In this document: piece after piece, positions 2,912 to 36,535 of the stretch
Layout: the number at the start of each line of letters is the position of its first letter
Numbering within the stretch: the first letter of the stretch is position 1
Translations under genes and position numbers: made by a program
Origin: Planctomycetaceae bacterium
GTDB taxonomy: Bacteria; Planctomycetota; Planctomycetia; Planctomycetales; Planctomycetaceae
Length of the DNA: 38,743 nucleotides
Assembly (NCBI GenBank): GCA_028284885.1
Contig: JANQQW010000232.1
Location: 1-38,743 of the forward strand
Direction of reading: 5' to 3'
The notes under the pieces: generated by a model
What the model was told of the DNA's origin: nothing
The model's input: the letters and a program-made list of their open reading frames with translations, nothing else
The model's database searches: none

Positions 2912-3684
2912 GAAGCCTGCTCGAACTTGGAGAAGACGCGACCCGACGGACGGGCCACGGAGCGAGGGCGTCGCCGTGAAGACCACGACGCCGTGCTGAA
3001 GAAGCGATTCGCCGATGCGTGACGTTCACGCCTACGATCCCGGGGTGGTCCCTGCGGGAGGGAAACGAGTGTCGCCTCGACCGGGAAGTCGGCCGAGTGT
3101 TCGGTCCCATCTGCGAGCGAGTCGAATCACGAAACCCGGAACGCCGTTGGTCGCGGCCTCCCGGTCAACCGCGGTCAGCGGCTGGTCCTACACGACGTGC
3201 GGGGACGGCTCTCGAGCGACAACGAGCGCTCCGAGAACCGATTCCACGGTCGTCGAAGGATGCAGACGATCTCCCGACCGGGCCCACGTCGAGGCGTCAG
3301 AGCCGACACTCTGGGGAGTGCAGCAACGCCCCGAAGAAAACCTGCCGTGAGCGGCGGGGGGAGGCGTCCCGTTTCGAGCCTTGCCAGTCTCAGGGTGACC
3401 CGGATCGACTTGAACGCGAGCGACCCAGAGCCAAAGGAAGCATCGTCAAGGCTCCAAGACTCGCTGCATCATACCTCGAACGAAGCGTGTGTCAATCGAA
3501 ACCAAATGGGCCGGGCTGGAAAGTCGTGCCGATTCGGCAAGCCAGAATCGGCCGGTCCGTCGCGCGCGAAGCATCGACCGGACGACCGTCGCCCCGTCGT
3601 TGAGTCCGAGTCCCGATTCTCGTTCAATGACGGGCATCGCTCGTCCCGACCCGCGGCTTCGTCGTTCCCTCGATCCAACGTCCC
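2912..3684. other. 773-base gap with no convincing gene
   Basis: This gap lies between the divergent rho and HerA-like genes and must hold their promoters. Open frames exist on both strands (for example 3019-3603 plus) but are Arg/Pro/Ser-rich, lack recognisable domains and overlap one another. The base composition is less extreme than in the flanking genes, as expected of non-coding DNA. A simple hairpin, GCCGATTC/GAATCGGC with a 9-base loop, sits at 3528-3552 without a T-tract. A long untranslated rho leader would be plausible, because rho is often autoregulated through its leader, but I see no specific structure that proves it. Confidence 0.5.
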
Positions 3685-6150
3685 ATGCAAGCCTACGAAC
3701 AGCTCGGCAGCTTCTACCTCGGCCGCACCTACGACGTCGACGAGCGACGCGTGAAGCCGGAGACGCTGCTGTACGACTCAAAGGACCTCTGCACGCACGC
3801 CGTCTGCGTCGGCATGACGGGCAGCGGCAAGACCGGGCTCTGCCTCAGTCTGCTGGAGGAGGCCGCGCTCGACGGCATCCCCACCATCGCCATCGACCCC
3901 AAGGGGGACCTCGGCAACCTGAAACTGCAGTTCCCCGACCTGCAGCCCGCGGACTTCGAGCCGTGGGTCGATCCCGGCGAGGCGACCCGCCGCGGGATGA
4001 CGACCGAGGAGTTCGCCAAGGCGACCGCCGCCACCTGGGAGAAGGGACTCGCCGACTGGGACCAGGACGGCGACCGCATCGCCCGACTGCAGGCCGCCGC
4101 CGACGTCGCGGTCTACACGCCCGGCAGCAAGACGGGCATCCCGCTCACCGTCCTCCGTTCGTTCGCCGCGCCCTCCGCCGCGCTGCGTGCCGACGAGGAA
4201 CTGTTCCGTCAGCGGGTCGGCTCGGCCGCGTCCGGGTTGCTCGCGCTCATGGGGGTCGTCGGCGACACGCTGCAGAGCCGGGAGCACATTCTCGTCGCCC
4301 GCATCCTGGAGGAAGCCTGGTCGGCGGGTCGCAACCTCGACGTCCCCACGCTGCTCCGCGAGATCCAGTCGCCGCCGTTCGACCGCGTCGGCTTCCTCGA
4401 CCTCGAGTCGTTCTTCCCCTCCGGCGAGCGGTTCGAGCTCGCCATGCGGCTGAACAACCTGCTCGCCTCGCCGGCGTTCGCCTCGTGGTTGGAGGGCGAG
4501 CCGCTCGACGTCGGCCGGCTGCTCCGCTCGCCCGACGGCAAACCGAAGGTCTCCGTCCTCTCCATCTCGCACCTCTCCGACTCCGAGCGGATGTTCTTCG
4601 TGACCATCCTGCTCGAAGAGGTGCTCGCGTGGATGCGGACGCAGGCCGGCACGAGCAGCCTGCGGGCCATCCTCTACATGGACGAGATCTTCGGCTACTT
4701 CCCCCCCACCGCGAACCCTCCCAGCAAGAGGCCGATGCTGACGCTGCTGAAGCAGGCCCGCGCGTACGGCCTCGGCTGCGTCCTCGCCACGCAGAACCCG
4801 GTCGACCTCGACTACAAGGGCCTCTCCAACTGCGGCACCTGGTTCCTCGGCCGGCTGCAGACCGAACGGGACAAGCTCCGTGTACTCGACGGGCTGGAGA
4901 CGGCGGCCACCGGCACGGGCACCGGGCTCGACCGCAAACGGCTGGAGGGCATCCTCTCGAACCTCGGCAGCCGCGTGTTCCTGATGAACAACGTGCACGA
5001 GGACCACCCCGAGGTGTTCCACACCCGCTGGGCCATGTCCTACCTCCGTGGTCCGCTCAGCCGCGAGCAGATTCGGTCGCTGACCCCCGACCGCCCCGCC
5101 TCCTCGGCCGCACCGGGCTCCCTCGCCGCCGCGGCGGCCGAACGCGAAGCCGTGCAACCCGCCCCGGTCGCCGCGGCCCCGACGTCGTCGGCGAGCGTCA
5201 CCTCCGGCCGCCCGGTCGCGCCGCCGGAGATCGACGAGGGCTTTCTCGCCGCGTCGTCTCGCGGTACCGGCCGGCTCGTCTACCGGCCAGGCCTGTTCGC
5301 GAAGGCGAAGCTGCACTTCGTCCGCAGCACCTGGGACCTCGACGCCTGGCGGACGGCCCGCGTGCTGGTGACCGCGACCGAGAACGACGACGTCTGGAGC
5401 GAGGCCGACGTCGTGTTGGGCGACGAAGACGCGGACGTCGATCCCCAACCGGTGAACGGCGCCGAGTTCGCCGGCCTGCCGTCGGGCTGGGCGGACCCGT
5501 CCCGGTACAAGAAGTGGCGAACGGCGCTCAAGGACCACCTGTACCAGACACAACGCGTGACGCTGAAGAAGTCGTCGAAGCCGAAGGTGATCTCGTCGAT
5601 CGACGAGACCGAGGCCGACTTCCAGGCCCGACTCTCCCAGGCGGCCCGCGAACTCCGCGACCTCGAGGTCGAGAAGCTGAAGAGCTCGCTCGCCACGAAG
5701 GTCGACCGGTTGAAGGAACGGATCCGCAAGGCGGAGCAGCGGGTCGACCGGGAGAAGGCCCAGGCGAACCAGTCGGCCCTCTCGGCGGCCCTCCACTTCG
5801 GCAGCACCGTCCTCGGCGCGATGTTCGGCCGCAAGACGATGAGCGCGACGACCGTCTCCCGCTCGGCCACCTCGATGCGCTCCGCCGGCCGGGCCGCCGA
5901 GCAACGGGCCGACATCGGCCGCGCCCAGCAGGACGTGAAGGCCCTCGAAGAGGACCTGCAGGAACTGGAAGCCGAGTTCGAGGAGAAGTCGGCCGCCGTC
6001 CGCGAGAAGTTCACCGTCGACAACATCGAACTCGACACACTCGACGTCCGCCCTCGGAAGTCCGACGTCGACGTGGAGAACGTGATGCTGCTCTGGACGC
6101 CTTGGTACGTCGACGCGACGGGCATCGCCACGCCCGCCTTCGACGCCTGA
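3685..6150 (+). CDS. HerA-like/DUF87-type ATPase with C-terminal coiled coil
   Basis: The 821-residue product is a P-loop ATPase of the HerA/FtsK/VirB4-like group. Walker A is GMTGSGKT at residues 43-50, followed by IDPKGDL, as in DUF87/HerA proteins (DPKGD or DPHGD). Walker B is AILYMDEI near 328-336, with the downstream sensor-like segment LATQNPVDLDYKGLSNCGTWFLGR. After about residue 470 comes an Ala/Pro linker, then a charged coiled coil (about 640-780) interrupted by a small hydrophobic Gly/Ala patch (SALHFGSTVLGAMFGRKTMS). Such ATPases translocate or pump DNA or protein as hexamers. The substrate here is unknown, and no NurA-type nuclease is adjacent. The next gene starts 95 bases downstream. 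Confidence 0.8.
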   Translation: MQAYEQLGSFYLGRTYDVDERRVKPETLLYDSKDLCTHAVCVGMTGSGKTGLCLSLLEEAALDGIPTIAIDPKGDLGNLKLQFPDLQPADFEPWVDPGEATRRGMTTEEFAKATAATWEKGLADWDQDGDRIARLQAAADVAVYTPGSKTGIPLTVLRSFAAPSAALRADEELFRQRVGSAASGLLALMGVVGDTLQSREHILVARILEEAWSAGRNLDVPTLLREIQSPPFDRVGFLDLESFFPSGERFELAMRLNNLLASPAFASWLEGEPLDVGRLLRSPDGKPKVSVLSISHLSDSERMFFVTILLEEVLAWMRTQAGTSSLRAILYMDEIFGYFPPTANPPSKRPMLTLLKQARAYGLGCVLATQNPVDLDYKGLSNCGTWFLGRLQTERDKLRVLDGLETAATGTGTGLDRKRLEGILSNLGSRVFLMNNVHEDHPEVFHTRWAMSYLRGPLSREQIRSLTPDRPASSAAPGSLAAAAAEREAVQPAPVAAAPTSSASVTSGRPVAPPEIDEGFLAASSRGTGRLVYRPGLFAKAKLHFVRSTWDLDAWRTARVLVTATENDDVWSEADVVLGDEDADVDPQPVNGAEFAGLPSGWADPSRYKKWRTALKDHLYQTQRVTLKKSSKPKVISSIDETEADFQARLSQAARELRDLEVEKLKSSLATKVDRLKERIRKAEQRVDREKAQANQSALSAALHFGSTVLGAMFGRKTMSATTVSRSATSMRSAGRAAEQRADIGRAQQDVKALEEDLQELEAEFEEKSAAVREKFTVDNIELDTLDVRPRKSDVDVENVMLLWTPWYVDATGIATPAFDA

Positions 6151-6245
6151 GCCCTGCGACGGCCCGCCTGCGGTTCTTGAGCTACGGGTTAGGCCGTAGT
6201 AAGCTGGGGCCGAGCTCGGTTGTTCCAGCGATTCGAGGAGTCGGC

Positions 6246-8609
6246 ATGAGCAGGTTCTCGACGACGGTCGTGCTGTGTGTCTGGACGTCCGCGGCGTTCG
6301 CGGAGAACGTCGTCTTTCCGCCCGATGCCGGCGTCGTCGACGTCACGACGTACGGGGCCGTGCCGAACGACGGCCGCGACGACACGCGTGCGATCCAGAA
6401 GGCACTGGCGGACCACCCGACCGGCAACCACCTCTTCTACTTGCCGAACGGAGTCTACGACGTCAGCGACGTGCTGATGCGGCTCCCTGAGGACGACCCC
6501 GACCGGAACACCCGGGCCTGCATCGAACTCCGGGGCAGCAAGAAGCGGAACATCCTGCAGGGGCAGAGCGAGCTGGGCACGATCCTGCGGCTCGCCGACT
6601 CCGTCCCCGCCGCGTTCGACGGAGCCGTCCTCAACTTCGGCCAAGCCCCCGCTCAGCGCTTCCGCAACGCGATCCGGAACATGACGGTCAGCATCGGCAC
6701 CGGTCACCCGAAGGCGACCGGGGTCCAGTTCAACGCCAGCAACCAGGGAACCGTCCACGGCGTCACGATCAAGACCGAGGACCCCGGCCGAGCGGGAAGC
6801 GTCGGCCTCGACATGCGGCACACCGACGAGATCGGCCCGCTGCTCGTCGAGCACCTCACTGTCGAGGGCTTCGACTACGGCGTTCGCACCGCGTGGCAGA
6901 CGGCGAGCCAGACCTTCGAGCACGTCACGCTCCGCGACCAACGCCGGTTCGGCTGGCAGAACGGGTTCTCGCAGCGAGTCTTCGTCCGCAAGCTCACGTC
7001 CCGCAACGCCGTCCCGGCTTTCGCGAACGTCCCCGGCGGCGGCCGCGATCCCGGGCAGGGGGGCGTGGTGCTGCTCGACTCCGAACTCGTCGGCGTCGGC
7101 GAGGAGGCCATCAAGCAGGCCGCGGTCCGCAACCACAAGTCGGCCTACCTGCGGAACGTGCGCGGACCGGGCTACGGCCGGGTCGTCTCGCGGGAGATGA
7201 CGGCCTACCGCGGCAACGCCGGACCCGACGGGGCCGAGGTCGAGGAGTACTGGGCGAACGGCGTCGCCGACCGCCGCCGCGGCGGGGCCTTCTCGCTGTT
7301 CCCCTCGCCGGACCGCACGCTGCGACTGCCGGTCGAGGAGACGCCCGAGGTCGCGTGGGAGGCCGACCTCGCAAGGTGGAGCGGGCCGCACCGCTTCGCC
7401 GAAGGCGGGCCGGGCGACGGACCGGGGCACCCGGACGACGCGATCGACGACACCGTGGCCGTTCAACGGGCGATCGACTCCGGGGTGACGACCGTCTACC
7501 TGCCGCGGGGAACCTGGCGGGTCGGCGGGACGCTCGTCCTCCGCGGCAACGTCCGCCGCCTGCTCGGCTGCGAGTCCCGCATGGTCGGCCCCCGCGACGG
7601 TGGTCCCGGCATCGTCCGCGTCGGCGACGGGACGGCCGACGTGGTCGTCGTGGAACGACTCGAGTCGGGCGGCATCCGCTACGAGCAGGCGACCGGGCGA
7701 ACGCTCGTTCTCAAGAACCTACTCGGCGGCTCGTACGCGACGCCGAAGGACGTCGAACGGCCCGGCCCGCTGTTCGTCGCGGACGTCGTCTTCGGCCCGT
7801 CGGTCTTCCGCGGCCAACGGGTCTGGGCTCGGCAGTACGACACCGAAGGGGACACCGAGGCCGACCCCGACGTCGCGGCGAAGATCGTCAACGACGGTGG
7901 CGCGCTGTGGATTCTCGGCCTGAAGACCGAGGACGCCGGGACCGTGGTCCGCACGACCGCCGGCGGCCGGTCCGAGATCCTCGGAGCAATCCACGTCGGA
8001 GCCGCGGGCGAGGAGCCCCGCTTCGAGGTCGTCGATTCCGCCTTCTCCGCCGCCGGGGTCTACGGCGGGGCGTTCCGCTCGGTTCTCTCGGAGACGCGTG
8101 ACGGCGAGACGCGGGTCGCGACCGCGAAGGACATCGCACAGGCCGACGTGATCTCGGCGTTCCCCGCTTCCGCGATTCCCGACGAGGTCGTGCTCGACAC
8201 CGAGTCGCCGACCGGCGTCGAGATCGTCGGCGAGTGGCGGCTCACGGCCGACTACCCCAGCGGCTTCCTCGGCCGCGGCTTCCACACCACGAAGGCCGCC
8301 CCTGGTTCCGAGGCCGCCGTCGTGTTCACACCGAACCTCCCGGCCGCCGGCGAGTACGAGGTCGCCCTCCGCTGGACCCCGCAACGCAGCGGCTTCGGAC
8401 TCGCGAAGAGCGTCCCCGTCACGATCGACCACGCCGACGGCACGGCCGAGACGACCGTCGATCAGTCGCAGGGAGCCGCGCGATGGAACCCCGTCGGCAC
8501 GTTCCGCTTCGAGAAGGGGATCGCCAAGATCACCCTCTCCGCCAACACCCGCGGCGGCAACGTCGCTGCCGACGCCCTCCGCCTACGCCGAGTACCGAAG
8601 GGCCGCTGA
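6246..8609 (+). CDS. Secreted pectate-lyase-3-like beta-helix protein
   Basis: The 787-residue product starts with a signal peptide (MSRFSTTVVLCVWTSAAFA-EN). Two stretches carry the hallmark start of the Pectate_lyase_3/GH28-like right-handed beta-helix: DVTTYGAVPNDGRDDTRAIQ (about 27-46) and DDAIDDTVAVQRAI (about 398-411, followed by TTVYLPRGTWRV). The last 130 residues (about 657-787: GEWRLTADYPSGFLGRGF ... GEYEVALRWTP ... VAADALRLRRV) resemble the golvesin/xanthan-lyase carbohydrate-binding-like beta domain. It is probably an exported polysaccharide-active or polysaccharide-binding protein; the substrate cannot be read. The ATG at 6246 is fixed by the signal peptide, although the frame stays open far upstream. 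A hairpin CTACGG/CCGTAG lies just upstream at about 6181-6198. Confidence 0.85.
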   Translation: MSRFSTTVVLCVWTSAAFAENVVFPPDAGVVDVTTYGAVPNDGRDDTRAIQKALADHPTGNHLFYLPNGVYDVSDVLMRLPEDDPDRNTRACIELRGSKKRNILQGQSELGTILRLADSVPAAFDGAVLNFGQAPAQRFRNAIRNMTVSIGTGHPKATGVQFNASNQGTVHGVTIKTEDPGRAGSVGLDMRHTDEIGPLLVEHLTVEGFDYGVRTAWQTASQTFEHVTLRDQRRFGWQNGFSQRVFVRKLTSRNAVPAFANVPGGGRDPGQGGVVLLDSELVGVGEEAIKQAAVRNHKSAYLRNVRGPGYGRVVSREMTAYRGNAGPDGAEVEEYWANGVADRRRGGAFSLFPSPDRTLRLPVEETPEVAWEADLARWSGPHRFAEGGPGDGPGHPDDAIDDTVAVQRAIDSGVTTVYLPRGTWRVGGTLVLRGNVRRLLGCESRMVGPRDGGPGIVRVGDGTADVVVVERLESGGIRYEQATGRTLVLKNLLGGSYATPKDVERPGPLFVADVVFGPSVFRGQRVWARQYDTEGDTEADPDVAAKIVNDGGALWILGLKTEDAGTVVRTTAGGRSEILGAIHVGAAGEEPRFEVVDSAFSAAGVYGGAFRSVLSETRDGETRVATAKDIAQADVISAFPASAIPDEVVLDTESPTGVEIVGEWRLTADYPSGFLGRGFHTTKAAPGSEAAVVFTPNLPAAGEYEVALRWTPQRSGFGLAKSVPVTIDHADGTAETTVDQSQGAARWNPVGTFRFEKGIAKITLSANTRGGNVAADALRLRRVPKGR

Positions 8610-29706: not shown

Positions 29707-32700
29707 TCACGGAGCGGCGGTCGGAGACGTCGACCGGATTCGGACGTTTCGGTACTCGACCGGGACGTCGTAGGTGCGGAAGCCGACGCGGCCGCGGTTC
29801 TCGCCGCCGTACGAGTGCTCACCCGCCGGCTGGCCGTCGACCGTGACCGAGAGTCGATTCCGGCGTTCGACGACCCGCACGCGCCGCCACGTCCCGTCCG
29901 CCGGAATCGGAGCGGTGGTGCCGACGTTGACCTGGGAGCCGTCCTGGTGCTTGTCGACGACGGCGTGCACGTCACCACCGTCGTCCGTCACCCGGATCTC
30001 GAATTCGAGTTCGTAGTCCGTGAACTCGGCCTTCGTGACCAGCGCCCCGCCGCCGGTCTGCCGTGACTGCGGACCGGAGCTCAGCACACCCTCCTCGAGC
30101 GGCCACTCGATCTCGCCGAGACGCTCCCACGCGTCGAGCGTCCCGCCCGAGAGGAGGTTCGTCCATCCCGGTGCGTCGGACCGCATCCCGCCGACGGGCG
30201 ACCCTCTCTTGCCGCCCTCGCCGACCCGCACCCACTTCGCCCCGACGATCTTCCCGTGGTGCCCGTTGCCGCTGCTGTCCTTCAGGACGTCCCCGCCGCC
30301 CTCGTCGAGGTGGTACAGGACGACGGTGTTCGCGTCCTTGGTGAACCGGTCTGGCGGGTCGAAGTCGCGGTCGTACCGCGCCGACCAGGACACGCGGACC
30401 TCGTCGACCATTCCGTCGAAGACGGTCCGCCCGGACGCCCCGCCCACCAGCAGCGACTTCGAGTCGAACAGTCGCTTCAGTTCGAGCCGGGGTTCCTCGT
30501 CGGCGTCGAACCGGTTCGTCTTCCCGTCGTCGTACTCGGAGAGCGGCGTCTCCTGCAGCACGCCGTCGACGAACAGGCGGAGCCGACCGTTCGCGAGGAC
30601 GGTCGCGAGATGGACCCGCCGCCCCGGGACCGGCAGCTCGTTCGACTCCCGCGTGAAGGCGGCCGGGTCGTCCGCGTCGCCGACGTACGCCTTCGACCGC
30701 CACCGTCGCTGCTGGACCAGCGAGAGCGACCCGCCGAGCGAGACGACGACCGCCCCCTTGTCGTCGGGCGTGTCGCTCCGCGGGGTGGTCCATGCCTCCA
30801 GCGTCCACGCGTCGAGGTCGTCCGGCACCACGTCCGGCACCTCCACGTAGTCGTCCTCGCCGTCGAACCGGAGTCCCGTCGTCGTGGACGAAGGTCCGCG
30901 CTCGCCCACCCGCACCCACTTCGCCCCGACGATCTTCCCGTGGTGGCCGTTGCCGCTGGCGTCCGGCAGAACGTCGCCCTGGCCCTCGTCCACGTGGTAG
31001 AGAGCGAGTGTCTGGGCGTCCGGTTCGTGCCGTTTCGGCGGGGTGAAGTCGTTGGCATAGCGGGCGGTCGAGGAGATGCGGACCTCGTCGATCGTGCCGC
31101 GGCAGAACCACTTCGGCCTCTCCCGACCACCTTCGACGAGGATCGCCGCCCCGAGGACGGACTTCGAAGCGTGCCGGTGCTTGGTCGGGAACGTTCCCTT
31201 CGTGCCCCGCGAGACGAGCTTGCCTTCGAAGTACAGCGCGAGTTCCTTCCCGTCCCACACGCCGGCCACGTGGGTGGGGCCGTCCGCCGTCCCGTCGACC
31301 GTGTCGACGTCGAACGTCGACTGGAGCTTCCCCTTCTCGAGCCGGCCGAAGGAGAACCCGCCGCCGTCGTCCGGGCCCATCGAGAAGTGCTGGTCGTCGT
31401 TGCCGAACGCGACGAGGTGGGCGTACGGATCCGTTTGCCGACCCGCGTGCACGAGCATCTCGACCGTGCAGGGCCCTTGGCCGACCGGGATCGGGGGGAT
31501 CTCGACGTAGTCGTCGACGCCGTCGAACGCGAGGGCCGATCCGGACGCTCCAACACCGGGAGGATCCAGGAGCATCACCTCGACGTCCTTGAAGGACGCT
31601 CGCCCTCGGAACGCACTCAGGTCGAGGCCCCCGGAACCCGGCTCCCGAGCCACCGCCTGAAGCACTCGGCGACCGCCGGCGTACATCTCGACTCGGTCGC
31701 CGATCGTCGCCAGGACCACCTCGACGAACCCGTCCTCGTCCGTCGGAACGGAGCCGTCGGGCAGGGTCGTCTGCGTCAGGTTCTCATAGTCTTCGTCCGT
31801 CACACGCCGGCCGAGTCCCAGTTTCGTCGTCGTGTGCAGCCAGCCGGCGACGTACTCCGTACTCGACCGGTAACGCAGCTTCAGCGACGCGTTCTGCCCT
31901 TCGTCTTTGCGAACCTTGGCACGGAGGAGCATGTCGCGGCCCGAGAACCGGGACGCCGTCCACGCGGCACGGTCCAGTTCGAGAACCCCGTCCTCGAACC
32001 GGATGCCGTCCTCGTCTCGGGGAGGCGGATCGACGTCGAAGACCCGAACCCATTCGCCCGTGGCCAAGGGGGCGTAGTCCGGCAGGGGCGTCGCGGAGGC
32101 CGCGTCCGCCCGGACCCACTTCGCCCCGAAGATCTTCCCGTGGTGCCCGTTGCCGCTGGCGTCCGTCAGGACGTCGCCCTGCCCCTCGTCGAAGTGGTAT
32201 AGGGCGAGGGTCTCGGCGTCGGCCGTCAGTCGTTCCGACGGCTCGTACGGGGCGTCGTAACGGGCGATGCGTGAGACGCGCACTTCGTCCACGCGGCCGG
32301 CGAAACCGACGACCTTCTCGTGGGCGGGCGTGAGGTTGTTGAGTGCGCCGATCACGAGCGGGAGTCGCTTCCCCGCCACCCCTTGAAACCGCACGCCTTG
32401 CTCGGCAGTTGGCTTGCCGTCGACGAACAAGCGAATCTCCTCCGAGCCGACGACCGCAGCGACTCGAACCCTCTTGCCGATGGCGACGGGCTCCGAACTC
32501 GTACTGTGATTGGTCCCGTCGCCGGCGTTCAGTCCCAGAGCGTAGTAGGTGTTGCCGTCGCGGCTCGTTCCCACGACGAGGCCGAACCCCTCCTTCACCG
32601 TCGAGGTCGTCCCGATGACCGCCGCGATCCCCTTCAACTTCGTCTCGTCGGGGATGGTCACCGTCGCCTCGAGCGTCACGGGGTGGGACCCGTCGAGCGA

Positions 32701-34779
32701 GAGACTCGGAACCTCGACGTAGTCGTCAACGCCGTCGAACTCGAGGGCGTAGTCCTTGGTCGGCGGAGGAGAGGCCGAGGGCACGTGTGGCTTGCCGGCC
32801 TTCACCCACTCGGCCCCGGTGATCTTGCCGTCGTGCCCGTTTCCACTCGCGTCGGCGACGACGTCTCCCGCGCCCTCGTCGAAGTGGTAGAGGGCGAGCG
32901 TGTCGGCGTCCTTGGTGTGTCTTGTTGGCGGGGTGAAGTCGGCGTCGTACCGATGTACTGTCGTAATGCGGACCTCGTGGACGATTCCGCGAAGGTAGTA
33001 TCCGATGTCGAACGCCTTGCCGCCCGCCAGTTCACCGTCGAACGCGGCCGAACCCACCTGCTTGCCGTCCACGTAGAGCCGGAATTGATCGCCGTGCCGC
33101 ACGGCGGCGACGTGAGTCTTCCGGCCGACCTCCGCTTCGACCTTGCTCTTGATCTTCGGCGTGCCAAACAGGAGGAACCCGTCGCCCTCGTGGTGGGCCA
33201 CGCTGAAGCCGTACGGGAACCCGAACAGGGACTGCCGCCCGACCGGCTCGTGCATCGTGACGTAGCCCTCGATGCAGAGGTCGCCGTCTCCAGGGGGGAT
33301 CGTCAGGCCGGGCACGCTCACGCGGTCCGGCTTACCGCGAAACACCAGCCCGCCCTCGACGACGGGCCCGCCCGGTTCGTCGGGGGGCGACTCGCCACCT
33401 CCTCCACCTCCGCCGCCGGTCGAAAGGGCGATGAGCAGGACCACCGCCAGCAGCCCGCCGCCCGCTCCGGCGAGCACCCGCCAGTCGCGGAGCCAACTCG
33501 GCAGGCGTTCGGGCAGGGACGGTCCGCCGGCGACGTTCCGGTCGGTCTTCACCGTCTCCGAGATACCCGTGGAGATGACGGTCCCCTCGCCGATGGTCAC
33601 CTCGCTCTCCGGGTCCGTCCCGGCGGCCGTCGCGGTGGCGACGTAGGCGTCCGTGGCGTCGGAGAACTCGTCGGCGTCGATCTGCTTCAGGAACTGCGAG
33701 AGTTCCTTGTCCGACCGGCCCGAACCGGACTCGGCCGCGGCGGCCGTGGTGGCGGACTCGCCGGAACGCGCCTCCACCAGGGACGCGACGACCTCGGTCA
33801 TCGTCTGGTAACGGTCCTCGGGCTTCTTGGCGACCATCTTCGCGAAGACGGCCTGCACGGCCTCGGGGACGTCGGGCCGTTCCTTCCGGAGGTCGGGGAT
33901 CGGGTGGTTCGCGTGGGCCATCATGCGGGCCATCAGCGACTCGCCCCGGTAGGCCGGTCGGGCGGTGAGCAGGTAGTACAGGGTGATGCCCAGGCTGTAG
34001 ACGTCGCTCCGCTCGTCGGCGTCGCGGGTGCTCATCGCCTGCTCGGGGGACATGTAGTCCACGGTCCCCATGATCGTCCCGGTGCCGGTCAGCTCGGCCT
34101 GCGTGCCGACGTCCGCCGCGTCCGAGAAACGGGCGAGCCCCATGTCGAGGATCTTGACCGTCCCGTCGGCGTCGAGCAGCAGGTTGGCGGGCTTGATGTC
34201 CCGGTGGACGACCCCCCGCCCGTGGGCGTACTCCAGCCCCCGGGCCGCCTGCACGACGCAGTCGACCGCCTGCTCCGTCGGCAGCCGACCGGTCTTCTTG
34301 ACGACGGACGACAGGTCGCGGCCGTCGACGTACTCCATCACGAGCACGTGCCGGCCGTCGAACTCGTCGGCGTCGTACGCCCCCACGATGTTCGGGTGGC
34401 TCAGCTGCGCGGCGGCGACGACCTCCCGCTCGAACCGGGCGATCGCGTCGGCGTCCTTCAGCATTTCGGCCGGCAGCACCTTGATGGCGACCAGCCGCTG
34501 CATCCGCTTGTGCCGCGCCTTCAGCACCACGCCCATGCCGCCCCGGCCCAGCTCGTTCTCGACGACGTAGTTGCCGAAGGCGAGTTGGCTGCCGCGGTTC
34601 TTCCACAGCAGCTTGGCCTGGTGGGCCGTCAGCCGGCCGCTCTTGTGCAGCGACTTGACGAACTTCTCGGCGTTCCCGTCCGACGCGTCCGCCTCGACGC
34701 GGATCTCGGCCATCGTCGCGTCGTCGACGATGCCGGTCTGCTCGAGACGGTCGAGAAACTCGTTGATGCTGACGGCCAT
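29707..34779 (-). CDS. Giant Ser/Thr kinase with LamG-like and DUF1080-like ectodomain
   Basis: In this 1690-residue product a short N-terminal helical segment leads into a Hanks kinase (about 70-340): GRGGMGVV, VAIKVLP, VVHRDIKPANLLLD, KILDMGLAR (DMG for DFG), MGTVDYMSPEQ. A Ser/Ala linker and one membrane helix follow (about 434-456), then a poly-Gly hinge. Outside are four LamG/concanavalin-like units starting near 474, 674, 1078 and 1301, each with a DASGNGHHGKI-GAKWVRV-type end. A DUF1080-like insert (about 903-1073) and a C-terminal DUF1080-like domain (about 1533-1688) complete it. It is probably a receptor kinase sensing an envelope or external glycan; the ligand is unknown. The ATG at 34779 is chosen. 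The cytochrome gene begins 43 bases after its stop. Confidence 0.93.
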   Translation of the reverse strand: MAVSINEFLDRLEQTGIVDDATMAEIRVEADASDGNAEKFVKSLHKSGRLTAHQAKLLWKNRGSQLAFGNYVVENELGRGGMGVVLKARHKRMQRLVAIKVLPAEMLKDADAIARFEREVVAAAQLSHPNIVGAYDADEFDGRHVLVMEYVDGRDLSSVVKKTGRLPTEQAVDCVVQAARGLEYAHGRGVVHRDIKPANLLLDADGTVKILDMGLARFSDAADVGTQAELTGTGTIMGTVDYMSPEQAMSTRDADERSDVYSLGITLYYLLTARPAYRGESLMARMMAHANHPIPDLRKERPDVPEAVQAVFAKMVAKKPEDRYQTMTEVVASLVEARSGESATTAAAAESGSGRSDKELSQFLKQIDADEFSDATDAYVATATAAGTDPESEVTIGEGTVISTGISETVKTDRNVAGGPSLPERLPSWLRDWRVLAGAGGGLLAVVLLIALSTGGGGGGGGESPPDEPGGPVVEGGLVFRGKPDRVSVPGLTIPPGDGDLCIEGYVTMHEPVGRQSLFGFPYGFSVAHHEGDGFLLFGTPKIKSKVEAEVGRKTHVAAVRHGDQFRLYVDGKQVGSAAFDGELAGGKAFDIGYYLRGIVHEVRITTVHRYDADFTPPTRHTKDADTLALYHFDEGAGDVVADASGNGHDGKITGAEWVKAGKPHVPSASPPPTKDYALEFDGVDDYVEVPSLSLDGSHPVTLEATVTIPDETKLKGIAAVIGTTSTVKEGFGLVVGTSRDGNTYYALGLNAGDGTNHSTSSEPVAIGKRVRVAAVVGSEEIRLFVDGKPTAEQGVRFQGVAGKRLPLVIGALNNLTPAHEKVVGFAGRVDEVRVSRIARYDAPYEPSERLTADAETLALYHFDEGQGDVLTDASGNGHHGKIFGAKWVRADAASATPLPDYAPLATGEWVRVFDVDPPPRDEDGIRFEDGVLELDRAAWTASRFSGRDMLLRAKVRKDEGQNASLKLRYRSSTEYVAGWLHTTTKLGLGRRVTDEDYENLTQTTLPDGSVPTDEDGFVEVVLATIGDRVEMYAGGRRVLQAVAREPGSGGLDLSAFRGRASFKDVEVMLLDPPGVGASGSALAFDGVDDYVEIPPIPVGQGPCTVEMLVHAGRQTDPYAHLVAFGNDDQHFSMGPDDGGGFSFGRLEKGKLQSTFDVDTVDGTADGPTHVAGVWDGKELALYFEGKLVSRGTKGTFPTKHRHASKSVLGAAILVEGGRERPKWFCRGTIDEVRISSTARYANDFTPPKRHEPDAQTLALYHVDEGQGDVLPDASGNGHHGKIVGAKWVRVGERGPSSTTTGLRFDGEDDYVEVPDVVPDDLDAWTLEAWTTPRSDTPDDKGAVVVSLGGSLSLVQQRRWRSKAYVGDADDPAAFTRESNELPVPGRRVHLATVLANGRLRLFVDGVLQETPLSEYDDGKTNRFDADEEPRLELKRLFDSKSLLVGGASGRTVFDGMVDEVRVSWSARYDRDFDPPDRFTKDANTVVLYHLDEGGGDVLKDSSGNGHHGKIVGAKWVRVGEGGKRGSPVGGMRSDAPGWTNLLSGGTLDAWERLGEIEWPLEEGVLSSGPQSRQTGGGALVTKAEFTDYELEFEIRVTDDGGDVHAVVDKHQDGSQVNVGTTAPIPADGTWRRVRVVERRNRLSVTVDGQPAGEHSYGGENRGRVGFRTYDVPVEYRNVRIRSTSPTAAP
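30221..32920 (-). repeat. Four internal copies of a coding repeat
   Basis: Near-identical segments within the kinase gene lie at about 30221-30305, 30906-30990, 32106-32190 and 32801-32885. They encode the end of each LamG unit (DASGNGHHGKI, GAKWVRV). The first three share longer runs such as CACTTCGCCCCGA and GATCTTCCCGTGGTG. The fourth (KITGAEWVK) is the most diverged. They point to domain duplication inside the gene. Confidence 0.8.
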
Positions 34780-34915
34780 GCCCGTTCCCGTGGTTCGCAC
34801 AATCTACCCGGTCACGCTGGACGGCGTCACCCCGTGGAACCCCGAGGTGGGCGAACGTTGACGACGGCTCGGCGACCGGCGAAAACCGACTCTCGTCAAA
34901 CGAGTTGAGCAACGC

Positions 34916-36535
34916 ATGCAGTCGATCACCGAGACACTGGACGTACCGGACGAGGACCGCTTCACCGCGAGTGCGCTCCGCGTGCTGGAACGGGCGGGTG
35001 CGCTCGCCGTCGAACGCGGGCACGCGATCGTCGGCCCGGCGCACCTGTTGATCGCGTTGCTCGACGACGAGTCCTGGGCGGCGGAGATGCTCGTGCGGCG
35101 TGGGATCGATCTCGCCGAGGCCGAGGAACTGCTGGTCGGACTGCCGGAGGCGACGGCGGCCGACGGCGACTTGGAACCCGTTCAGCCGCCGCGGGGACCG
35201 GAGACGCAGATGGCCGTGCTGCACGGTCTCCGACTCGCCCAGCGGGACCGCGAAGGCTCGCGGCAGGCCGGCAGCGTCCACTTGCTGTACGGGCTCGCGG
35301 CCGGTGACTCCCACGTGGCCGTGCGACTGGAGACGGCCGGGCTCGACGAGTCCGTGCTTCAGGAGGCCGTGCTCGGCCCGCAGGACGCAACGGCGGAGCC
35401 GCTCCCGATCGACTTCTCGCTGCAACTCGACGAACGACCGGAGCCAACCCGGCTCGTCGAGCGACCCGCGGAGCCACCCCGAGCCGGCGGCCCCGTGGAC
35501 GGGGACCTCGCCGTCTACCGGGTGATCGACGCGTCCGCGAATCGTGCCCGCGAGGGGCTCCGAGTCGTGGAGGACTTCACCCGGTTCGTCCTCGACGACG
35601 CCCACCTCGTCACGCTGCTCAAGGAACTGCGACACGAGCTGGCCGCAGCGCTCGCCCCGTTCGACGACCACCGGCTGCTCCGCGCACGGGACACCACGGC
35701 GGACGTCGGGACCGGCGTCTCGACAGACTCCGAGTCACGTCGCGCGGACGTCGCCGACGTGGTCCGGGCGTCGTTGAAGCGGGGCGAGGAGGCGCTCCGG
35801 TCGCTCGAGGAGTTCGGCAAGGTGCTCGACCCGGCGGCCGGCCGTCGGTTCGAGACGCTGCGGTACCGCCTCTACACGGTGGAGAAGGCCGTGCTCGGCA
35901 CGCTGGCCGGCCGGGCGTCGCTCGCCGGCCGTCACCTCTACCTGCTCCTCACCCGCGACCTCTGCCGTCACGACCCCGAGCACGTGCTCCGCGAGGCGAT
36001 CGCCGGGGGCGTCTCCGTCGTGCAGGTTCGCGAGAAGTCGGCGTCAGACCGTGAACTGCTCGACTGGCTGGGCCGCGTCCGCGAGATCACGCACGCTTCG
36101 GACACCCTTCTGGTCGTGAACGACCGCCCGGACCTCGCCGTGCTCTGCGACGCCGACGGCGTGCACGTCGGCCAGGACGAGGCGACCGTTCGCGACGCCC
36201 GCCGGGTGGTCGGACCGAACCGTCTGGTCGGCGTCTCGACCCACGATCTCGAACAGGCGCGGGCGGCGGTTCTGGAGGGGGCGGACTACGTCGGCGTGGG
36301 GCCGACGTTTCCCTCGCGGACGAAGTCGTTCGACGAGTTCGCCGGCATCGAGTTCGTGCGCGCCGTCTCGACGGAGGTCACACTGCCGACCTACGTGCTG
36401 GGCGGCGTGAACGAGACGAACGTTTCCGAGGTCGTGGAGGCCGGGGGGACACGCGTCGCCGTGACGGCGGCGATCAGCTCCGCCGACGACCCCCGCGCGG
36501 CCGCGGCCGCGTTGAGGTCCTGGCTTCCGAGGTGA
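34916..36535 (+). CDS. thiE: Clp_N domain fused to thiamine-phosphate synthase
   Basis: The 539-residue product has three parts. Residues 15-150 carry two Clp R-domain-like repeats: FTASALRVLERAGALAVERG with VGPAHLLIALL, and TQMAVLHGLRLAQRDREG with SVHLLYGLAAGDS. A Pro-rich linker follows (about 165-195). Residues 198-330 form the N-terminal extension seen on some ThiE proteins (VYRVIDASANRAREGLRVVEDFTRFVLDD). Residues 335-539 are the ThiE TIM barrel: VQVREKSASDRELL, VVNDRPDLAVL, DGVHVGQDE, GVSTHDLEQA, YVGVGPTFPSRTK. It should join HMP-PP and HET-P to make thiamine phosphate. The Clp repeats, normally on ClpA/ClpC, have no obvious reason to be here; they may bind a regulator or protease adaptor. 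The frame has no break. Confidence 0.9.
   Translation: MQSITETLDVPDEDRFTASALRVLERAGALAVERGHAIVGPAHLLIALLDDESWAAEMLVRRGIDLAEAEELLVGLPEATAADGDLEPVQPPRGPETQMAVLHGLRLAQRDREGSRQAGSVHLLYGLAAGDSHVAVRLETAGLDESVLQEAVLGPQDATAEPLPIDFSLQLDERPEPTRLVERPAEPPRAGGPVDGDLAVYRVIDASANRAREGLRVVEDFTRFVLDDAHLVTLLKELRHELAAALAPFDDHRLLRARDTTADVGTGVSTDSESRRADVADVVRASLKRGEEALRSLEEFGKVLDPAAGRRFETLRYRLYTVEKAVLGTLAGRASLAGRHLYLLLTRDLCRHDPEHVLREAIAGGVSVVQVREKSASDRELLDWLGRVREITHASDTLLVVNDRPDLAVLCDADGVHVGQDEATVRDARRVVGPNRLVGVSTHDLEQARAAVLEGADYVGVGPTFPSRTKSFDEFAGIEFVRAVSTEVTLPTYVLGGVNETNVSEVVEAGGTRVAVTAAISSADDPRAAAAALRSWLPR

Follow-up and report, generated by a model that had tools for sequence, protein, structure and literature searches.

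In the class Planctomycetia, thiamine phosphate synthase (ThiE) is in most of the genomes that hold the gene fused to an N-terminal domain of the Hsp100 type (Clp_N), and its gene usually lies head-to-head with clpC. Known N-domains of the Hsp100 type either belong to unfoldases or occur as free accessory proteins (ClpT and ClpC2). We infer, with a probability of roughly 0.38, that Clp_N serves here as a docking domain that would couple ThiE to the ClpC protein quality-control system.

An uninterrupted Clp_N-ThiD2-ThiE gene

The window, i.e., the whole stretch of DNA that was analysed (38,743 nucleotides from a Planctomycetaceae bacterium), carries the following features:

34916..36535, + strand: complete gene of the Clp_N-ThiD2-ThiE fusion, 539 aa (ORF listing, Pfam, NCBIfam, architecture kept in relatives)
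34958..35137, + strand: Clp_N repeat 1, aa 15-74 (Pfam Clp_N, AF2 and fold match, conservation)
35198..35377, + strand: Clp_N repeat 2, aa 95-154 (whole-domain Clp N-domain matches, AF2 and fold match, alignment)
35384..35512, + strand: disordered linker, aa 157-199 (AF2 pLDDT, alignment, linker dN/dS)
35519..35887, + strand: ThiD2 domain (HMP-P kinase family), aa 202-324 (PF17792, 8.8e-40)
35936..36511, + strand: ThiE domain (thiamine phosphate synthase), aa 341-532 (PF02581, 2.5e-55; TIGR00693)

The open reading frame begins with ATG and has no internal stops. Clp_N (PF02861) was matched by Pfam at aa 28-72 (2.3e-8; 34.5 bits, cut-off 20.7); Pfam by itself scores only repeat 1, and the second repeat was seen in whole-domain matches to ClpB and ClpG models. 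In the alignment, repeat 2 has the family motif G[TS]EHLL, which reads GSVHLL in the window copy, and the linker carries a weak family motif, [ED]P[IL]xVD. ThiD2 (PF17792) was matched at 136.4 bits (cut-off 23.5) over profile positions 1-123 of 124, and TMP-TENI (PF02581) at aa 341-520 (2.5e-55) over positions 1-180 of 180, i.e., the whole barrel; the ThiE family TIGR00693 scored 175.3 bits (cut-off 145.1), and aa 197-537 correspond to the bifunctional ThiD2-ThiE equivalog family NF002727 (360 bits, cut-off 335). Among 24 homologues, Q370, R372, K374, N402, D403, S441, K470 and G497 of ThiE are invariant and D414 is kept in at least 90%; we take the motifs QxRxK, ND, DGVH, STH, GPTF..TK and GG to hold the substrate- and Mg-binding residues. 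No AAA match was found by Pfam in the 539-aa protein. Since the Clp_N part is in one continuous frame with ThiD2-ThiE, it is not a free N-domain protein of the ClpC2 or ClpT type. Domain matches and structure prediction together showed a ThiD2-ThiE enzyme, predicted to be bifunctional, that is preceded by an N-domain of the Hsp100 type and a flexible linker. The first-pass annotation of this DNA had described an unbroken frame with two Clp_N-like repeats and a full ThiE barrel, and on this the open reading frame, Pfam/NCBIfam and AF2 agree; the segment that it had called a ThiE-associated N-terminal extension is actually the ThiD2 domain (PF17792; NF002727), so that the annotation of the middle domain is corrected to a kinase.

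The same two domains, in the same order, form the ThiD2-ThiE enzymes (NF002727 / PRK02615) of cyanobacteria and other planctomycetes, but this known form lacks Clp_N, and the cyanobacterial loci compared begin at ThiD2. At a locus of Desulfotomaculum sp. UBA9916 (L129, match 1651-2766) a response-regulator receiver domain is joined in frame ahead of ThiD2-ThiE, so that there, too, a regulatory domain precedes the enzyme.

ThiD2 is a kinase specific for HMP phosphate (PMC12345177). ThiC is encoded in the window genome, and no match to the classical ThiD (PF08543) was found there with a search that was positive in 14/14 control genomes. Because ThiC is present and classical ThiD absent, the fusion probably supplies both the HMP-P kinase and the thiamine phosphate synthase activities, ThiD2 being probably the sole HMP-P kinase of this organism. 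At 12 loci, the surroundings of thiE gave no match to the TPP riboswitch or to any other Rfam RNA.

The N-terminal domain is predicted to fold like an Hsp100 N-domain

When solved structures were searched with the single sequence, the N-domains of ClpC, of a mycobacterial ClpC2-type protein and of ClpB were retrieved at ~1e-7, with the ClpC N-domain entries aligned over aa 14-151; a profile built from 22 homologues retrieved Clp N-domains at 5e-16 to 4e-15. The AF2 model made with the full alignment is confident both for the N-domain (~aa 15-154) and for the enzyme part, and pLDDT falls below 50 at aa 157-159 and 163-193; its pTM of 0.61 is consistent with modules that are tethered flexibly. 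Modelled alone, the N-domain forms two pseudo-symmetric four-helix repeats, which superimpose on the ClpB N-domain 1khy with a Z of 16.5 (2.2 A over 127 residues), on ClpT2 with a Z of 16.5 and on ClpC-type N-domains with a Z of ~16. Thus, the region folds, according to the model, like an Hsp100 N-domain with both repeats present, and the claim of a Clp_N-like N-terminal region held up in the predicted structure (Z ~16 to ClpB, ClpC and ClpT N-domains).

The ClpC/ClpB/ClpA N-terminal domain (PF02861) has the same two-repeat sequence and fold (Z ~14-16.5); in contrast to those proteins, the ThiE fusion lacks AAA+ modules and has lost the ClpC phosphoarginine glutamate in repeat 1. Plant ClpT1/ClpT2 likewise present this fold apart from an ATPase (Z 16.1-16.5), but ClpT is a separate protein that attaches to the ClpPR core (PMC8889267), whereas the ThiE N-domain is fused to an enzyme. 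In mycobacterial ClpC2 a ClpC-type N-domain also occurs outside an ATPase (PMC10030653); it has its own dimerisation domain, and the window protein has a metabolic enzyme instead.

Besides a hydrophobic groove, the N-domain of ClpC has two pockets for phosphoarginine (E32, E106; T7) (PMC12583610). The equivalent of E32 is a glutamate in 3/58 ThiE N-domains (repeat 1) and that of E106 in 44/58 (repeat 2), and the window copy has A and V at these positions, so that both glutamates are absent. By symmetry, T81 is presumably the second-pocket counterpart of T7. Recruitment through phosphoarginine (McsB) was rejected, the ClpC pocket residues being mostly lost in ThiE N-domains; with the pocket glutamates lost, recognition of this mark is unlikely despite the encoded McsB-type kinase homologue. 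Other positions are kept: R22 of repeat 1 is present in 57/58 ThiE N-domains and E52 in 95%. The equivalent of R22 is K in the ClpC and E in the ClpB of the window genome, and R22 is, in this alignment, a signature of ThiE N-domains.

The fusion is spread through the class Planctomycetia

The search set comprised 392 genomes of the phylum and 21 further relatives; the regions upstream were then scanned with an N-domain profile, and one divergent genome (G407) was inspected. The Clp_N-ThiD2-ThiE architecture was present in 45 of the 58 gene-holding Planctomycetia genomes, and one more has Clp_N joined straight onto ThiE, which gives 46/58 as the spread of the fusion among the planctomycetal ThiE proteins of the class; Clp_N is missing from ThiE in the other 12. 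By family, fused ThiE was found in 35/38 genomes of f1 (the window's family), 0/8 of f2, 1/2 of f3, 1/1 of f4, 3/3 of f5, 3/3 of f101, 2/2 of f102 and 1/1 of f103 (Clp_N directly on ThiE). Named records that carry the fusion include Singulisphaera acidiphila, Isosphaeraceae, Gemmatales/Gemmataceae, Pan216 and some Pirellulales. Outside Planctomycetia, no alignment in the Clp_N region was observed among the best matches listed, and the profile scan of the out-of-class rows detected Clp_N in none. As had been supposed, ThiE needs no such domain, since it is absent from the 12 class genomes and from the out-of-class relatives seen. An assembly error or chance joining was rejected because dozens of genomes that were assembled independently have the fused form, several of them within one contig.

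The single genome of f103 (G407) encodes a 375-aa protein in which Clp_N is followed directly by ThiE. ThiD2 was not found in this genome, a strong classical ThiD is present elsewhere in it, and clpC is still head-to-head with thiE; this architecture indicates that Clp_N travels with ThiE and not with ThiD2.

The N-domain was gained once and is under selection

The N-domains of ThiE proteins all group in a single clade (support 99/99) that lies apart from ClpC as well as from ClpB, which points to one origin and several losses. On a tree of the ThiD2-ThiE core the fused/unfused label requires 7 changes, against a mean of 28.7 for shuffled labels. The rows with the fusion sit together in a single class-wide region of this tree, although its support is weak (82), and one gain followed by about six losses is the simplest reading. 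The phylogenies thus showed that the N-domain was gained once near the base of Planctomycetia. Given the head-to-head order of the genes, descent from an inverted copy of the adjoining clpC 5′ end was attractive, but it is not supported, because the ThiE clade lies outside ClpC and ClpB and because a broad profile of ThiE N-domains gives the two nearly equal scores (medians of 63 and 64 bits). Narrow profiles prefer ClpB in 56/57 cases, which may merely reflect the uniformity of the ClpC set.

In the six closest pairs, dN/dS was 0.10-0.21 for the N-domain, and 0.03-0.08 both for the linker and for the enzyme core, and the rate of evolution is about 2- to 6-fold higher in the N-domain than in the core. 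As estimated from these ratios, the N-domain is under purifying selection, weaker than that on the enzyme. The rapid divergence and the about six inferred losses would be in keeping with a nearly neutral relic, that is, an N-domain that landed on thiE once and has since been a tolerated extension; however, a dN/dS of 0.10-0.21, an R22 kept in 57/58 copies class-wide and the retention of Clp_N after the loss of ThiD2 make such a history quite improbable.

The thiE gene is paired with clpC in the class

A comparison of neighbourhoods revealed clpC as the sole widely shared neighbour of thiE. Among the 40 class genomes in which the upstream flank of thiE spans 4 kb or more, 29 have clpC head-to-head with thiE (33 when four short-flank genomes are included), and this arrangement was found in 0/20 genomes outside Planctomycetia. 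The start codons are mostly 0.2-0.6 kb apart in f1 and ~1 kb apart in f2, and no CIRCE heat-shock element was found between clpC and thiE. The pairing also occurs in class genomes without the fusion (f2, G357, G361 and G402), with the exception of the unfused G353, in which clpC is nearby but on the same strand; hence, the pairing is older than, or independent of, the fusion. Gene order across the class showed that the head-to-head pairing is ancestral. About 11 of the 40 well-flanked genomes are without it, the window's included: no clpC is present in the 34.9 kb upstream of thiE, and clpC is on another contig (C11, locus L242), so that the window genome has lost the linkage. This genome encodes ClpC, ClpS and a McsB-type kinase homologue. 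The fusion has been lost several times while the clpC linkage stayed, which indicates that neither requires the other.

Other reading frames were noted at these loci. In G257, an independent ORF of 277 aa, in which Clp_N is matched three times (L063:8618-9448, - strand), lies between clpC and the fused thiE, and its first repeat resembles the adjoining ClpC N-domain; G409 encodes a free-standing 166-aa double Clp_N protein, ClpC-like and without ATPase modules (L238:1420-1917, - strand). At L067:10511-11173 (+ strand), and also at L068, L072 and L062, a partly hydrophobic ORF of ~210-240 aa occupies the thiE-clpC gap on the clpC strand. In the window itself, the 1697-aa product of positions 29707-34800 (- strand) combines a Ser/Thr kinase domain with four laminin-G-like domains and a 3-keto-disaccharide hydrolase domain, and the 1706-aa product of positions 3489-8609 (+ strand) has both a pectate-lyase-like and a golvesin C-terminal domain.

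A possible docking role for Clp_N

If Clp_N is a docking domain, it would compete with, or be bound by, partners that recognise the ClpC N-domain or ClpC itself, with adaptors such as ClpS, peptides or unfolded segments, and the ClpC ring as candidates. The stability or amount of the enzyme of the last thiamine phosphate synthesis step might in this way be tied to ClpC(P) activity, and the divergent clpC-thiE gene pair could serve co-expression. Trapping of CLPC1 in plants enriched THIC and the TPP enzyme DXS1 (PMC8889267), so that a link between Clp and thiamin is not without parallel. On the other hand, the fast divergence of the N-domain, as might be expected of a spacer or stability module, might speak against docking, and the thiE-clpC linkage may be inherited gene order. 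The coupling to proteolysis put forward in the first-pass annotation was strengthened in one respect, the conserved head-to-head clpC neighbour, and weakened in another, the residues of a phosphoarginine receptor being mostly absent. A bolder variant, in which the Hsp100 N-domain is a built-in tag and ThiE is directly controlled by, or competes with, the neighbouring ClpC unfoldase, is doubtful.

Clp_N might also act without any contact with ClpC, as an intramolecular or assembly module whose affinity for exposed hydrophobic segments folds, stabilises or oligomerises ThiE, or recruits another thiamine enzyme. Its fold and similarity are as near to ClpB, the N-domain of which binds unfolded segments, as to ClpC, it follows ThiE upon the loss of ThiD2, and it is kept where clpC is unlinked. 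We nevertheless regard this as somewhat unlikely, because ThiE is made without Clp_N in many class members and in all the out-of-class relatives seen, the clpC pairing is left unexplained, and the pLDDT falls in the long linker, with no sign of a fixed packing onto the enzyme.

Cyclomarin is bound by ClpC2, an N-domain-only homologue that protects ClpC1 (PMC10030653), and in sequence and fold ClpC2 ranks with the nearest matches of the ThiE N-domain; together with the N-domain-only ORFs at L063 (between clpC and thiE) and L238, this would suit a decoy or sensor that soaks up ClpC N-domain ligands or toxic peptides, with the enzyme as a mere carrier. Such a role is very improbable, since the ThiE N-domains are far diverged from the very conserved planctomycete ClpC N-domains, a poor fit to mimicry, and a constitutive vitamin enzyme would be an odd carrier.

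Each of the families, and the ThiD2-ThiE fusion, were known, and the three-domain architecture and the clpC pairing are apparently new; no published account of the three-domain fusion, its class-wide retention or the clpC pairing was found in the open-access literature. The natural losses of the fusion would serve as controls, and the question is testable in cultured planctomycetes. If the tag reading were true, a metabolic enzyme would be regulated through the unfoldase's own receptor domain. A class-wide selected fusion to an enzyme of vitamin synthesis, together with the pairing with clpC, would be a direct genetic hint that proteostasis controls a metabolic pathway, or the reverse.
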